DNA of 64,000 nt from Planctomycetales bacterium 10988 (GTDB taxonomy: Bacteria; Planctomycetota; Planctomycetia; Pirellulales; Pb10988). The notes beneath the pieces are model-generated. The model saw only the letters and a program-made list of their open reading frames with translations, had not been told where the DNA came from and did no database searches. The DNA lies in contig CP043547.1 in the NCBI GenBank assembly GCA_009664345.1, positions 1,860,001-1,924,000 of the forward strand, in the 5' to 3' direction. A program made the position numbers and the translations under genes. Shown here in pieces: positions 33,370 through 38,578 of the stretch (positions within the stretch are counted from its first letter, which is position 1; each line of letters starts with the position of its first letter).

Positions 33370-36300
33370 CTATGCCTTTTGTTGGGCGGCTTTCAAATCT
33401 CCGAGGGTTGATTCGGCGATGCGAACCTGTTCGCGAAGTTCTTGCAACGATTCGCGCTCACGCTCGACCACTTCCTTCGGTGCCCGTGAGACGAAGTTTT
33501 CATTCTCCAGCTTCTTGGCTTTCCCTTCGATCATTTTTTCGAGCTTGCTGATTTCTTTTTCCTGTTTGGCAATCTCTTTATCGAAATCCAGGAACGCTTG
33601 CAAATCGACGAAGACTTCGTAAGAGACCGATTCGCCGCCGGCGGATTGTGCCGTAAACTGGAAACTCGAACTCGCTGCCGGGGGTTTGATATCACTTCCC
33701 ATCGCAGCCAGCTCCGCACCTGCCATCGAAGCGAAGTAGGCCTTCATCGGTTCAATGAGCTTGACCGCCTTTTCATCACATCGGACAAAGAAGGGGATCG
33801 TCTCCTTGGGCGGAATGTTCTGTCGGCTTCGAATCTCACGCAGCCCTTTGAGCATCTCTTGGAAGCAGGCGAATTCCGCTTCAATGCCGGGATTGAGCCA
33901 CTTTTCATCCGCGACTGGCCAATCGGCAATCATCACGCTTTCCGCTGGTTCACTCGGATTGGATAACCCACGCTTCGGGGCGACTTCATTGAGCCGGTGC
34001 CAAATTTCTTCCGTGACAAACGGAGTCAACGGGTGCAACAAGCGAACAAGTTGGTCGAGGACAAACGCCAAAATCCGCAGCGCAACGGCTTGTTCATCCT
34101 TCGATTGCAGCCGCTGTTTAACCATTTCCAGGTAAAAACTGCAAAACTCATCCCAAGCATAATCGTATAACGTCCGGGCGGCTTCGGCATACTTGAAGTT
34201 TTCAAAAGCCTCGGTGACTTGCTGGGTCACCGCCGTCAGGCGACTGAGCAACCAACGATCTTCGACCTCAAGGGCATCTTCCGGCACCTCGGCAGGGGCG
34301 TAGTTCTCCAGATTCATCAAGCAGAAGCGGGCAGCGTTCCACAACTTATTACAGAAGTTTCGCGACACTTCAAACCGCGGACTCGTGACCGTAGCTCGGG
34401 GCAGGCCGAGGTCTTCCTCCGAACGTGCCCATTGTGTGGAAAACTCTTTCTTACAATGTTTGCACTCGATCCGTGCCAGCGAACGATTCTTCTTGCTCTG
34501 CGGAATCGCTCCTTCACAATGTGGGCATTGGTACTCGACCGGGATGCGGACGTCTTGCGTTTCCGTGGTGAGATAAGCCAAGGCAAAGCGGAGAGCATCG
34601 GTCCCGGATTGGCGAATCACCTCCAAGGGATCGACGCCGTTTCCCTTGCTTTTGGACATCGTTTCGCCATCGCCATCGAGAATCTTCGGGTGAATGAAGA
34701 CCTGATGGAAAGGAATTTCACCCACGTTGTGCAACCCGGTCAGCACCATCCGCGCGACCCACAGCGTGAGAATATCACGACTCGTAATCAACACACTTGT
34801 CGGATAATAGTATTCAAGGTCCTTCGTTTGTTCTGGCCAACCGAGTGTCGAATGCGGCCACAACGCCGAACTAAACCAAGTATCAAGAACATCTTCTTCG
34901 CGAATGAAGCCTTCCGCTTCGTATTTTTTGCCTAGTTCCGCATCCTCCGATTCGCTGCAAATACAGAGATGGACCGTGCCATAAGGGAGGTCCTCCATCG
35001 CGGCTTGCGATTGCGGATCGTCGCGATTTTCCAAAGATTGGCGTTCCTCGTTGATCTCCAGCCAGATGGAAACGCGGCCATCTTGAACGGCTTTATCTTC
35101 TCGCAAGAGATTCATCAAATCATCCGCTTCGCCTTCTTCAGCAGCATTCCGCGACCAGACAGGAATTTGATGCCCCCACCAGAGTTGCCGACCGATGGGC
35201 CAATCCCGTTTTTCGGAAAGCCAATCGTGATAACTTTTCGCATAGCGAGCCGGAATGATTTCGACCTGTCCCTCGCTGACGGCATCCATCGCGGATTGGG
35301 CGAGTTGATCCATTTTGACAAACCATTGATCGGCCAAGTACGGTTCGATCGGCGTCTTCGATCGATCGCTATGAGCCAGCTCGATCTCACGGGCTTCGAC
35401 ATCCAAGAGCAAGCCTTGTTCTTCCAGATCGGCAACCACTTTTTTACGGGCTTGTTTGATGGTCAAACCTTCGTAAGGTCCGGCATAGGCATTCAACTTT
35501 CCATCAGGATTCAAGATGTTGATCATCGGCAAATCTTGCCGCAAACCGACTTGATAGTCGTTCGGATCGTGGGCCGGAGTGATCTTCACACAGCCACTTC
35601 CTAGCTCCGGCTTGGCCCATTCATCTGTAACGAGGCGGATCTTTCGCTTGAGCAGAGGCAACTCGATTTCGCGACCATCAGCGGCCATCTTGGCCAAGGT
35701 TTTCAACGTCGGCAGGTGTGTGTCGTATCGTTTTTCCAGGGCTTCCAATTGTTTTTGCAGGCCGGGCTTCTCTTTTTCATTGGCAGCAGCCAAGCGTTCC
35801 TTCAACCCTTTGGCCACTTTATCAAGGGCCTTCTTCGGATCAGGATGCACGGCCACTGCGGTATCGCCCAGCATGGTCTCCGGACGAGTGGTCGCGACGA
35901 CAACGTGATCCGGCTCGCTGGCTTTCGGACCGATCACAGGATACTTGAAGTGCCAAAAATGCCCTTTGACTTGATCGTAAAAGACTTCATCATCGGAAAC
36001 AGCCGTTTGTAGAAAAGTATCCCAATTCACAAGACGCTTGCCGCGATAGATCAGACCTTGCGAAAAGAGACTAAAGAACGTCTGTCGCACGGCGCGAGTG
36101 CAGGTCTCATCGAGCGTGAAGCGAGTCCGCCGCCAATCGCAGCTACAACCCATCTGCCGGATTTGATTCAAAATCCGCTTTTCATATTCTTCCTTCCAAT
36201 CCCAAATCCGCGAAACGAGGGCCTCGCGACCGAGATCGTGCCGAGTGAGATTTTCCTCTTCATGCAAACGTCGTTCGACCACGGCTTGCGTGGCGATGCC

Positions 36301-36558
36301 GGCATGGTCGGTCCCCGGCACCCAAAGGGCATTTTCCCCCCGCATGCGATGGAATCGGATCAGGCTGTCTTGCAAGGTTTCATTGAGGGCATGCCCCAAG
36401 TGCAGGGCCCCGGTGACATTCGGCGGAGGAATGACAATCGTGAACGGGACACGGTCCGGATCGGGATCGCTTTGTGAATAGCCGCGTTCTTCCCAATGGG
36501 CATTCCAGCATTCTTGTGCGGCGGCATGATCGTACTGCTTGGGCAATTCTTGGGACAT
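33370..36558 (-). CDS. valS: Valyl-tRNA synthetase with a zinc-ribbon-like insertion
   Basis: Class I synthetase for tRNA-Val, 1062 aa, longer than typical bacterial ValRS. HIGH-type PPPNVTGALHLGHALNETL lies near residue 50 and the MSKS loop is GETMSKSKGNGVDP. Two insertions stand out. A lysine/glutamate-rich helical segment of about 50 residues lies in the editing domain (around 233-280). A cysteine insertion follows the MSKS region: CPHC near 678 and CKHC near 699, just before NFCNKLWNAARFCLMN. The C-terminus is the usual coiled coil. ATG 36558 is chosen. It follows cimA by 84 bases on the same strand. Confidence 0.96.
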   Translation of the reverse strand: MSQELPKQYDHAAAQECWNAHWEERGYSQSDPDPDRVPFTIVIPPPNVTGALHLGHALNETLQDSLIRFHRMRGENALWVPGTDHAGIATQAVVERRLHEEENLTRHDLGREALVSRIWDWKEEYEKRILNQIRQMGCSCDWRRTRFTLDETCTRAVRQTFFSLFSQGLIYRGKRLVNWDTFLQTAVSDDEVFYDQVKGHFWHFKYPVIGPKASEPDHVVVATTRPETMLGDTAVAVHPDPKKALDKVAKGLKERLAAANEKEKPGLQKQLEALEKRYDTHLPTLKTLAKMAADGREIELPLLKRKIRLVTDEWAKPELGSGCVKITPAHDPNDYQVGLRQDLPMINILNPDGKLNAYAGPYEGLTIKQARKKVVADLEEQGLLLDVEAREIELAHSDRSKTPIEPYLADQWFVKMDQLAQSAMDAVSEGQVEIIPARYAKSYHDWLSEKRDWPIGRQLWWGHQIPVWSRNAAEEGEADDLMNLLREDKAVQDGRVSIWLEINEERQSLENRDDPQSQAAMEDLPYGTVHLCICSESEDAELGKKYEAEGFIREEDVLDTWFSSALWPHSTLGWPEQTKDLEYYYPTSVLITSRDILTLWVARMVLTGLHNVGEIPFHQVFIHPKILDGDGETMSKSKGNGVDPLEVIRQSGTDALRFALAYLTTETQDVRIPVEYQCPHCEGAIPQSKKNRSLARIECKHCKKEFSTQWARSEEDLGLPRATVTSPRFEVSRNFCNKLWNAARFCLMNLENYAPAEVPEDALEVEDRWLLSRLTAVTQQVTEAFENFKYAEAARTLYDYAWDEFCSFYLEMVKQRLQSKDEQAVALRILAFVLDQLVRLLHPLTPFVTEEIWHRLNEVAPKRGLSNPSEPAESVMIADWPVADEKWLNPGIEAEFACFQEMLKGLREIRSRQNIPPKETIPFFVRCDEKAVKLIEPMKAYFASMAGAELAAMGSDIKPPAASSSFQFTAQSAGGESVSYEVFVDLQAFLDFDKEIAKQEKEISKLEKMIEGKAKKLENENFVSRAPKEVVERERESLQELREQVRIAESTLGDLKAAQQKA

Positions 36559-36614
36559 GGCCAATTCCTATCGCCTGAGATTCTCTTCCGAGTCGAACTA
36601 ACTGTAATTTTCTA

Positions 36615-36642: not shown

Positions 36643-38238
36643 TTACTCTTTACGTTTGGGTCGCAATTTTTGGTCTTCGTCTTTGTAGAGTTTGTATTCG
36701 AAGCTATCGACCAAGGCTTGCCAGCTGGCTTCGATGATATTTTCATGGACGCCGATCGTTCCCCAATCGCCGTCTTGATCACCACTTTCGATAATGACGC
36801 GGACACGGGCGGTCGTGCCATCGCCGGAGTTGATCACGCGGACCTTATAATCAAGGAGCTTGAGTTTTTCCAAAGCTGGGAAATCTTCCGCAAGACCTTT
36901 TCGCAAAGCGGCATCCAAGGCGTTCACCGGACCATTACCCTCGGCGACTTCGTGGCGAATGGTGTCAAAGATTTTCATCTTCACGGTCGCTTCGGTGAGC
37001 AGCTTCCCTTCGACACCGACTTCGGTATTTACATGATAACGGAGTCTCTCGAACCAAGGGCGATACGTCCCGGCAACTTTTTTGACCAAGAGATCGAAGG
37101 AAGCTTCCGCCGCTTCGAATTGATAACCTTGATTCTCTAGCTCGACGACGCGATTGAGAATCTCACCCATTAGCTCCTTATCTTTTTTGATGTCGTGCTT
37201 GTCAGCCAAGAGCATGATGTTGGAACGCCCGGAAAGCTCGCTCACCAAGAAGCGGCGTTCGTTGCCGACTTTTTCAGGGTGAATATGTTCGTAACTCTCG
37301 GCCGCTTTGGCGACGGCGTGAACGTGCATACCCCCTTTGTGAGCAAAGGCACTCTGACCGACGAAGGGTTGGTTGTTGCGAATGCTCATGTTCGCGGTTT
37401 CGTAAACAAATCGCGAAATTTCCGTCAAGCGTCCGATATCATGGGTAGAACGCAGGACTTCATATCCTTTCTTCTTCAGAGCCAAATTCGCAACGACGGA
37501 GATCAGATCGGCATTCCCGCAGCGTTCGCCGATGCCGTTGATGGTTCCTTGGACTTGAATAGCCCCGGCGTCGACCCCGGCCAAGGAGTTCGCTTCGGCC
37601 AAGTCGCAATCATTATGACAGTGAATGCCAACAGGAACCGGGAGCTGTTTCACGGCGAGCTTTGTGAGTTCGGCGATTTCTTCCGGCATCGTGCCGCCGT
37701 TGGTATCGCAAAGCACGACCATGGACGCCCCGGCTTCGGCAGCCGCTTGCAAGGTTAACAGGGCATATTCCGGATTGGCCTTCCAACCATCGAAACAGTG
37801 TTCGGCATCGTAAATGATCTCGCGGCCTTGCTCCTTTAAATAGGCAACCGTCTCGCGGATCATCGCGATATTCTCTTCCAGCGAAACCCCTAACACATTG
37901 ACCGCGTGGAAGTCGGACGTTTTCCCCACGATGGTCATTACGGGGGCCTTCGACTCCAGCAAGGCCTTCATGCCAGGATCGTCGGCGGCTTTCATGCCGC
38001 GGCGGCGAGTCATCCCAAAGGCACAGACTTTCGCATGTTCGAGCTGCATCTCATGGACACGTTGAAAGAATTCGGCGTCCTTCGCATTCGAAAGGGGATA
38101 GCCTCCTTCAATGTAGTCAAACCCGCATTGATCGAGCTTTTTAGCGATCATCAATTTATCGTGCAGCGAAAAATGAACGCCTTCGCCTTGGGAGCCATCT
38201 CGGAGCGTCGTGTCGTAGATTTGGATCTTGGTTGTCAT
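36643..38238 (-). CDS. cimA: (R)-citramalate synthase
   Basis: Condenses acetyl-CoA with pyruvate to citramalate, the threonine-independent route to 2-oxobutyrate and isoleucine. 531 aa. HMGL-like barrel: IQIYDTTLRDGSQGEGVHFS at the N-terminus, VVLCDTNGGTMPEEI, GIHCHNDCDLAEANSLAGVDAG spanning the metal site, INGIGERCGNADL; then the C-terminal regulatory domain (LDYKVRVINSGDGTTARVRV), the likely isoleucine-sensing region. The length and the YEHIHPEKVGN and GRSN segments match CimA rather than LeuA. ATG 38238 is preferred. It lies behind a probable attenuator and ahead of valS. Confidence 0.94.
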   Translation of the reverse strand: MTTKIQIYDTTLRDGSQGEGVHFSLHDKLMIAKKLDQCGFDYIEGGYPLSNAKDAEFFQRVHEMQLEHAKVCAFGMTRRRGMKAADDPGMKALLESKAPVMTIVGKTSDFHAVNVLGVSLEENIAMIRETVAYLKEQGREIIYDAEHCFDGWKANPEYALLTLQAAAEAGASMVVLCDTNGGTMPEEIAELTKLAVKQLPVPVGIHCHNDCDLAEANSLAGVDAGAIQVQGTINGIGERCGNADLISVVANLALKKKGYEVLRSTHDIGRLTEISRFVYETANMSIRNNQPFVGQSAFAHKGGMHVHAVAKAAESYEHIHPEKVGNERRFLVSELSGRSNIMLLADKHDIKKDKELMGEILNRVVELENQGYQFEAAEASFDLLVKKVAGTYRPWFERLRYHVNTEVGVEGKLLTEATVKMKIFDTIRHEVAEGNGPVNALDAALRKGLAEDFPALEKLKLLDYKVRVINSGDGTTARVRVIIESGDQDGDWGTIGVHENIIEASWQALVDSFEYKLYKDEDQKLRPKRKE

Positions 38239-38307: not shown

Positions 38308-38339
38308 AAAAAAACCCTGAAACCAGAAGGCCTCAGGGT
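38308..38339 (-). terminator. Attenuator terminator in the cimA leader
   Basis: On the minus strand ACCCTGA (38339-38333) pairs with TCAGGGT (38320-38314), followed by seven T. It lies 70 bases before the cimA start, within the leader. Its 5' arm CCTGAGGCC (38337-38329) can instead pair with GGCCTTAGG (38373-38365), which spans the stop codon of the leader frame. Confidence 0.75.
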
Positions 38340-38365
38340 ATTGCAATCGTTTCTAATACGCTTTC

Positions 38366-38482
38366 CTAAGGCCAAACCGGAGAGTACGGAATCGCAATCT
38401 TTCCCAAAATCGAAATCGCCACCAGCATCACCAGCGAGGTGATTGGCTGAACGATTCGTGGTAAGATGGAATTCAACAACAC
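38366..38482 (-). CDS. Putative branched-chain leader peptide upstream of cimA
   Basis: A short frame ending at TAG 38368-38366. From GTG 38482 it encodes 38 residues, of which 17 are Ile, Leu or Val (seven Ile); from ATG 38428 it encodes MLVAISILGKIAIPYSPVWP. AAGG about 8 bases upstream supports the GTG start; the ATG has only GGTG. It lies between a good promoter and a terminator hairpin, in front of an isoleucine-pathway gene. A small membrane peptide is the alternative reading. Confidence 0.55.
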   Translation of the reverse strand: MLLNSILPRIVQPITSLVMLVAISILGKIAIPYSPVWP

Positions 38483-38549
38483 AGTAAAGCCTTAAGGAAT
38501 GCGAAGACGGCTATTGGCAACAACCGTATCGAAATCTGCGTAAGTGTTT

Positions 38550-38578
38550 AGACTATCGAGCCTTGCCCAAACTGTCAA
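38550..38578 (-). promoter_or_regulatory. Probable promoter of the cimA leader transcript
   Basis: TTGACA (38578-38573), a perfect -35 box, is separated by 17 bases from TAGTCT (38555-38550). Transcription would begin near 38543, about 60 bases before the GTG of the leader frame and after the cysK stop at 38627. Confidence 0.6.

Follow-up and report, generated by a model that had tools for sequence, protein, structure and literature searches.

The minus-strand segment at positions 38308-38578 of the window (the whole stretch of 64,000 nucleotides of Planctomycetales bacterium 10988 analyzed here) raises the question of how the gene downstream of it, cimA, is controlled. This leader region lies between cimA and cysK, the latter being located upstream on the same strand. 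The cimA gene (36643-38238, minus strand, ATG at 38238) encodes a (R)-citramalate synthase of 531 residues, an identity already assigned in a preliminary description of the locus and borne out by a match to TIGR00977 of 663.6 bits (cut-off 450). It is followed on the same strand, after 78 bases, by valS (33370-36564). The preliminary description read the region as a leader-peptide attenuator, and this reading now has strong comparative-genomic support in that codons, frame, cognate pairing, and promoter are all kept in relatives. We conclude that cimA is very probably controlled by transcription attenuation at this leader, mediated by a ribosome on the leader peptide frame, and that valS probably falls under the same control.

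The elements from which such a switch could be built follow one another along the minus strand. A promoter at 38550-38578 comprises TTGACA (38578-38573), a 17-base spacer, and TAGTCT (38555-38550). Next comes a putative protector segment, TCGCATTCCTTAAGGCTTTACTG (38482-38504), which is able to sequester segment 1 (see below) and includes an AAGG (38493-38490) that could act as the ribosome-binding site of the leader. The leader peptide frame (38366-38482) begins with a GTG seven bases past this AAGG and runs over 38 codons, encoding MLLNSILPRIVQPITSLVMLVAISILGKIAIPYSPVWP before its stop; the leader combines a GTG start and a short ribosome-binding site with a poor -10 box in front, all of which speak against a working attenuator. 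By our own count, 17 of the 38 codons specify Ile, Leu, or Val. The putative control codons, ATTTCGATTTTGGGAAAGATTGCGATT (38390-38416), include the four Ile codons closest to segment 1, all of them ATT, and the last (38392-38390) is separated from segment 1 by about 10-16 bases. Segment 1, GGCCTTAGG (38365-38373), forms the 5' half of the antiterminator and encloses the TAG stop codon of the leader (38368-38366). Segment 2 (38329-38339) is at once the 3' half of the antiterminator and the 5' arm of the terminator, and within it CCTGAGGCC (38337-38329) is complementary to GGCCTTAGG across nine bases. The intrinsic terminator (38308-38339) consists of an 11-pair hairpin (38339-38314) and seven T (38314-38308). 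The short frame with its branched-chain codons and its end at 38366, the hairpin with seven U, and the nine-base pairing with the stop codon inside it were therefore all read as the preliminary description had them.

Folding predictions agree with two exclusive structures. The antiterminator by itself, corresponding to the fold before segment 3 is made, has a free energy of -17.1 kcal/mol (z -2.9 versus shuffles), while the terminator wins at -19.6 kcal/mol once segment 3 is included; the fold of the entire leader has a z of -5.1. The protector (38504-38482) in duplex with the segment-1 window reaches -21.8 kcal/mol. Segment pairing at this locus exceeds chance, and the real proof is its conservation.

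In trp and his attenuation, a shortage of the cognate amino acid lets transcription read through, and this is the basis for our prediction for cimA. From the arrangement of the elements we infer where ribosomes would stand, that tRNA charging would be the signal, and how cimA, along with valS, would be regulated in the cell. RNA polymerase is expected to start the cimA leader near 38543, and a ribosome loading on the leader frame would open the helix between the protector (38504-38482) and segment 1. With charged tRNA-Ile plentiful, this ribosome would reach the stop codon in segment 1 and cover that segment, such that segment 2 would pair with segment 3, the terminator would form, and cimA would be off. 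With charged tRNA-Ile scarce, the ribosome would stall at AUU codons short of segment 1, and the free segment 1 would pair with segment 2, preventing the terminator and allowing the polymerase to read cimA. An untranslated leader would probably leave segment 1 held by the protector and the unit off. Attenuation of the trp and his type has been modelled previously (PMC1183508).

We compared 80 cimA loci from public genomes together with one found by DNA similarity. An intrinsic terminator lies shortly upstream of cimA in 68 of about 80 loci, and 53 of these 68 also have an Ile-rich leader, defined by at least three Ile codons in the last 25 and by a stop codon within the segment that pairs with the terminator 5' arm. 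About one quarter of the order sample is without a detectable cimA element; together with its lack throughout family f111 (see below), this is among the weakest points of the attenuator reading. The preliminary description had proposed aligning the leader across relatives, and in the relatives the short frame is indeed retained with its Ile codons, as is the pairing of the antiterminator. Ile codons occur at 3.5 per 20 in the frame of the stop codon versus 0.3 and 0.5 in the two remaining frames (p ~1e-8), and Ile makes up 20.1% of the codons in the 53 leaders versus 5.0% in cimA, establishing both the frame and the codon specificity. Even the synonymous codons differ, as leaders prefer ATT (ATT:ATC of 183:79) and cimA prefers ATC (395:893). 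Val, by contrast, stands at 10.0% in the 53 leaders versus 9.4% in cimA, and Leu is rarer in the leaders (4.1% versus 8.7%). Of the branched-chain codons emphasized earlier, only those for Ile are therefore enriched in relatives, Leu and Val being incidental, and the expected conservation of Ile and Val codons holds for Ile, Val remaining about as frequent as in cimA. Four consecutive ATT codons persist in Gimesia-type genomes despite changes in the codons next to them.

The spacing of these elements suits the proposed ribosome positions. The last Ile codon precedes the leader stop by a median of 18 bases and segment 1 by mostly 5-20 bases, so that a ribosome awaiting tRNA-Ile would leave segment 1 free. 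Between the stop and the terminator lie a median of 28 bases, which puts the terminator beyond the reach of a ribosome at the stop. Downstream, 54 of about 80 relatives have valS 3' of cimA in the same orientation. From this gene order, cimA and valS probably form one transcription unit, and the attenuator may govern the pair. Some loci carry tandem terminator or U-tract copies (GGGTTTTTTTG repeats) before cimA (L074:1-212, L002:1530-1590, and L008), possibly a local expansion of the switch. At another locus (L299, genome G340), the CimA match contains one in-frame TAA.

Covariation of both stems had been suggested as a further check on the pairing. For the terminator it was clear, with the observed covariation score reached by 0 of 500 shuffles. 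For the antiterminator, the column count in the MAFFT alignment was weak (10 of 500 shuffles equaled the observed covariation score and 35 of 500 the percentage paired), likely because the bulge sits differently in leaders ending in UAG, UAA, or UGA, which puts the columns near the stop codon out of register. We therefore dropped the column-based measure in favor of a permutation of cognate pairs, which is unaffected by register shift: the stop-codon window was paired with its own terminator arm and with the arms of other loci, partners being exchanged in 5000 permutations. Cognate segment 1 and segment 2 paired with a mean of -18.4 kcal/mol versus -14.4 kcal/mol for permuted partners (z -9.6), with 0 of 5000 permutations as good. 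The signal persisted within terminator-type groups (z -5.8, -3.7, and -6.0; the groups overlap slightly), and the control windows gave z values of +0.4 upstream of the stop and -2.4 for the linker. At several positions of the antiterminator, both partners of a pair have changed, by counts that derive from per-sequence optimal duplexes and are hence biased towards pairing. TAG stops opposite CCTGAGG switch to TGA stops opposite CCTCAGG, showing that the stop codon is itself part of the compensation. Cognate pairing of the antiterminator is thus established.

The same permutation approach points to a fourth segment. In 52 relatives, the zone from -100 to -50 relative to the stop, which lies around the leader start, showed cognate pairing with segment 1 (z -6.3); this signal was weaker at other offsets, and the reversed sequence of the same zone gave a z of -1.4. 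Protector pairing is found in many, though not all, ribosome-mediated attenuators, and here it is clear at the level of single loci in a minority only. The statistical support suggests that a protector segment probably silences the unit in the absence of leader translation, making OFF the likely untranslated state. The cimA element brings together an end-product-rich reading frame, an intrinsic terminator, an exclusive antiterminator, a probable protector, and control codons that depend on the gene.

This last property is the strongest single test, namely that codon identity changes with the gene. In the order sample, candidates were selected blindly, by terminator and stop position alone, before cimA and before leuA, yielding candidates from 28 of 35 and 22 of 30 genomes, respectively. 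Ile codons outnumber Leu codons in 26 cimA leaders and the reverse holds in one; among leuA leaders, Leu exceeds Ile in 21 and Ile exceeds Leu in none (Fisher p 1e-12). Examples of leuA leaders are NLLPLLLLALTERKA and LLLSSLLLTDLLLTGSRP, each ending at a stop, and the source genome has its own, MTYLLTLVLRLELLLTKR followed by a stop, at G000:C1:6512200-6512340 (L221, L092). The leuA genes of Pirellulales (L127-L156) have leaders with Leu runs and the stop codon inside the antiterminator arm. As negative controls, we ran the same search in the same order before ilvB, trpE, and hisG: no credible element was detected in 30 ilvB loci (one weak candidate), and none in 22 trpE or 22 hisG loci. The DAHP synthase genes of Pirellulales (L235, L236, L241, L245, L248, and L251) gave ambiguous candidates only; these loci have terminators with a complementary upstream segment some 300 bases before the family match, and the candidate leaders contain some aromatic or Leu codons. 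Two refinements of the preliminary description follow from the leaders compared: the predicted signal is Ile, joined by Val in Gemmataceae, and leuA has a putative Leu-specific counterpart.

Could the hairpin simply be the 3' terminator of cysK, with the short frame arising by chance? A cysK gene in the same orientation upstream and a hairpin of good terminator quality would fit, and the preliminary description had itself named this as the case that would undo its reading. However, among the 46 leader-bearing relatives for which the upstream sequence extends to 1.5 kb or more, none has cysK there, and a TTGAC-N16..19-TAnnnT pair precedes 47 of 52 leaders, with 0.4 expected from base shuffles. 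These promoter-like pairs and the lack of an upstream cysK indicate that the cimA element starts a unit of its own and is not the tail of cysK. Since the Ile codons, the frame, and the cognate pairing are conserved as well, we give the cysK terminator a negligible probability. The same counts bear on the promoter, which the preliminary description had placed correctly: its TAGTCT matches only three of the six bases of TATAAT and a strict sigma-70 scan did not call it, yet the equivalent pair in relatives establishes it as a conserved element. Another class of explanation, in which a metabolite riboswitch, a T-box, or a protein-bound antiterminator works the terminator and the frame is incidental, would be compatible with every conserved terminator/antiterminator pair that precedes a biosynthetic gene. 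We regard it as exceedingly improbable, as the strong constraints outside the helices concern codon content and frame, and no Rfam family was matched in the 64 kb of the window at the gathering score; at a relaxed threshold, only a chance-level NsiR1 match appeared. The T-box covariance model had no match at either threshold. The ilvB-II and ilvB-OMG uORF motifs were also set aside, the gene here being cimA and not ilvB, with no Rfam match for such families available.

The leader might alternatively act through arrest of the nascent chain or slow termination at its C-terminus, sensing a small molecule in the manner of TnaC rather than through hungry Ile codons. Many Pirellulales leaders do end in R-P-stop or R-A-stop, but these residues are fixed by the RNA pairing (GCGGCCGTAAGGG) and differ in other families, the rest of the leader peptide is variable, and codon identity tracks the target gene, Ile with cimA and Leu with leuA. 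An arrest peptide is therefore very unlikely. That the switch senses Ile, Val, and Leu jointly is, in our estimate, unlikely too. The 17 branched-chain codons of the 38366-38482 leader speak for it, as do the leaders of Gemmataceae (family f112 in our sample), whose stop-codon frame has 3.5 Ile codons and 4.25 Val codons per 20 and whose other frames have almost none. Against it, only Ile is enriched among the 53 leaders, and the cimA leaders of the order sample average just 0.36 Leu and 2.0 Val per 20 codons. An attenuator responding to Ile-specific stalling hence remains the reading that we carry forward.

We then asked how far the element extends by searching 294 genomes of the phylum with a covariance model, R1, built from cimA elements. 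In the class sample, cimA is present in 68 of 69 genomes, and its element in 9 of 10 genomes of family f21 and in most of f112, a family in which one CimA is identical in sequence to the protein from Gemmata sp. SKYG68. In family f111, the cimA element was detected in 0 of 17 sampled genomes (L306, L310, L311, L314, L319, L321, L324, and L327-L336), which we read as a lineage-specific loss or replacement of the attenuator. Outside Pirellulales, R1 also matched, with fitting leaders, before genes that we named only from their first residues: one ilvB (L116) with an Ile/Val-rich leader (MFATLAIISVIIEPIAIGDAMHGPA, then stop), one chorismate-mutase-type pheA (L123) with a Phe-rich leader beginning HLSGRFFFFSNFTTGQ, several DAHP synthases (L100, L108, L114, L115, L122, L124, and L125; for example, FFYFVFGAREGP and WYFDLFYFWFIYQKGGSRG, both ending at a stop), and an aroG-type gene (L117). 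Leaders before these aromatic genes are rich in Phe/Tyr/Trp or in Phe. R1 also matched plain terminators of the source genome, for example two identical, ordinary terminators right after 5S rRNA (L084, L085), and such matches were left out of the counts. Since the enzymes encoded by cimA and leuA are homologous, their attenuators may descend from a single ancestor whose amino-acid specificity was later altered.

The class of mechanism is classical. Like the trp, his, leu, thr, ilvGMEDA, ilvBN, and pheA attenuators of enterobacteria, the cimA element has a leader frame with control codons for the end product, a mutually exclusive antiterminator and terminator with a protector segment, and, as proposed here, a ribosome at the stop codon that would mask the 5' half of the antiterminator. 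It differs in occurring in another phylum, before a gene that is not a target in enterobacteria, and in placing the stop codon inside the paired antiterminator arm, where TAG, TAA, or TGA varies with the terminator arm. The ilvB-II motif, or ilvBNC uORF attenuator, of Corynebacterium (PMC10272879, PMC11857589) likewise combines a branched-chain-rich uORF with a terminator and antiterminator, and the ilvB-OMG and Leptospira ilvB motifs also have such a uORF before a branched-chain pathway gene. In these three motifs, however, the gene is ilvB and the control codons are mixed Ile, Leu, and Val (plus Thr), whereas the cimA element uses Ile. Actinobacterial attenuators including the LEU element have runs of Leu or Ile/Val/Leu codons before leuA and ilvB, as here, but the actinobacterial leuA element has been described as a pseudoknot (PMC1262725), whereas planctomycete leuA has a terminator and antiterminator with the stop in segment 1. 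A paper of 2010 stated that leader peptides had until then been known from Proteobacteria and Actinobacteria alone, and itself added Firmicutes (PMC2965389). For Planctomycetes, the Rhodopirellula-1 motif is listed as a candidate cis-regulatory RNA, its entry in that listing giving neither structure nor downstream gene (Weinberg 2010, PMC2864571). Our literature search, which most subscription journals fell outside of, returned no description of a cimA or planctomycete amino-acid attenuator, and Rfam 15 contains neither the cimA(-valS) nor the leuA attenuator family of Planctomycetia. What is new, then, is these two families.

Ribosome-mediated attenuation works only when a ribosome follows close behind the polymerase. 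The conservation of codon-specific attenuators is therefore evolutionary evidence for coupling of transcription and translation in Planctomycetia, Gemmataceae included. In Gemmata, the two processes have been proposed to be spatially segregated (Gottshall 2014, cited in PMC5287468 and PMC5394234). The codon-specific attenuator of Gemmataceae argues for coupled transcription and translation, at least at cimA. Beyond the single locus, we somewhat favor the view that a set of attenuators with the stop codon in the antiterminator arm spans the Planctomycetota (Ile for cimA-valS and Leu for leuA; outside Pirellulales, Ile/Val for ilvB, Phe for pheA, and Phe/Tyr for DAHP synthase) and that coupling occurs in Gemmataceae. 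The element would equip the citramalate route of isoleucine synthesis with a gene-specific sensor, and the covariance model together with the leader rules allows it to be annotated in many uncultured genomes. A classical mechanism is thereby placed in a phylum where the literature searched had not described it, and the debated separation of transcription and translation in these bacteria becomes directly testable.
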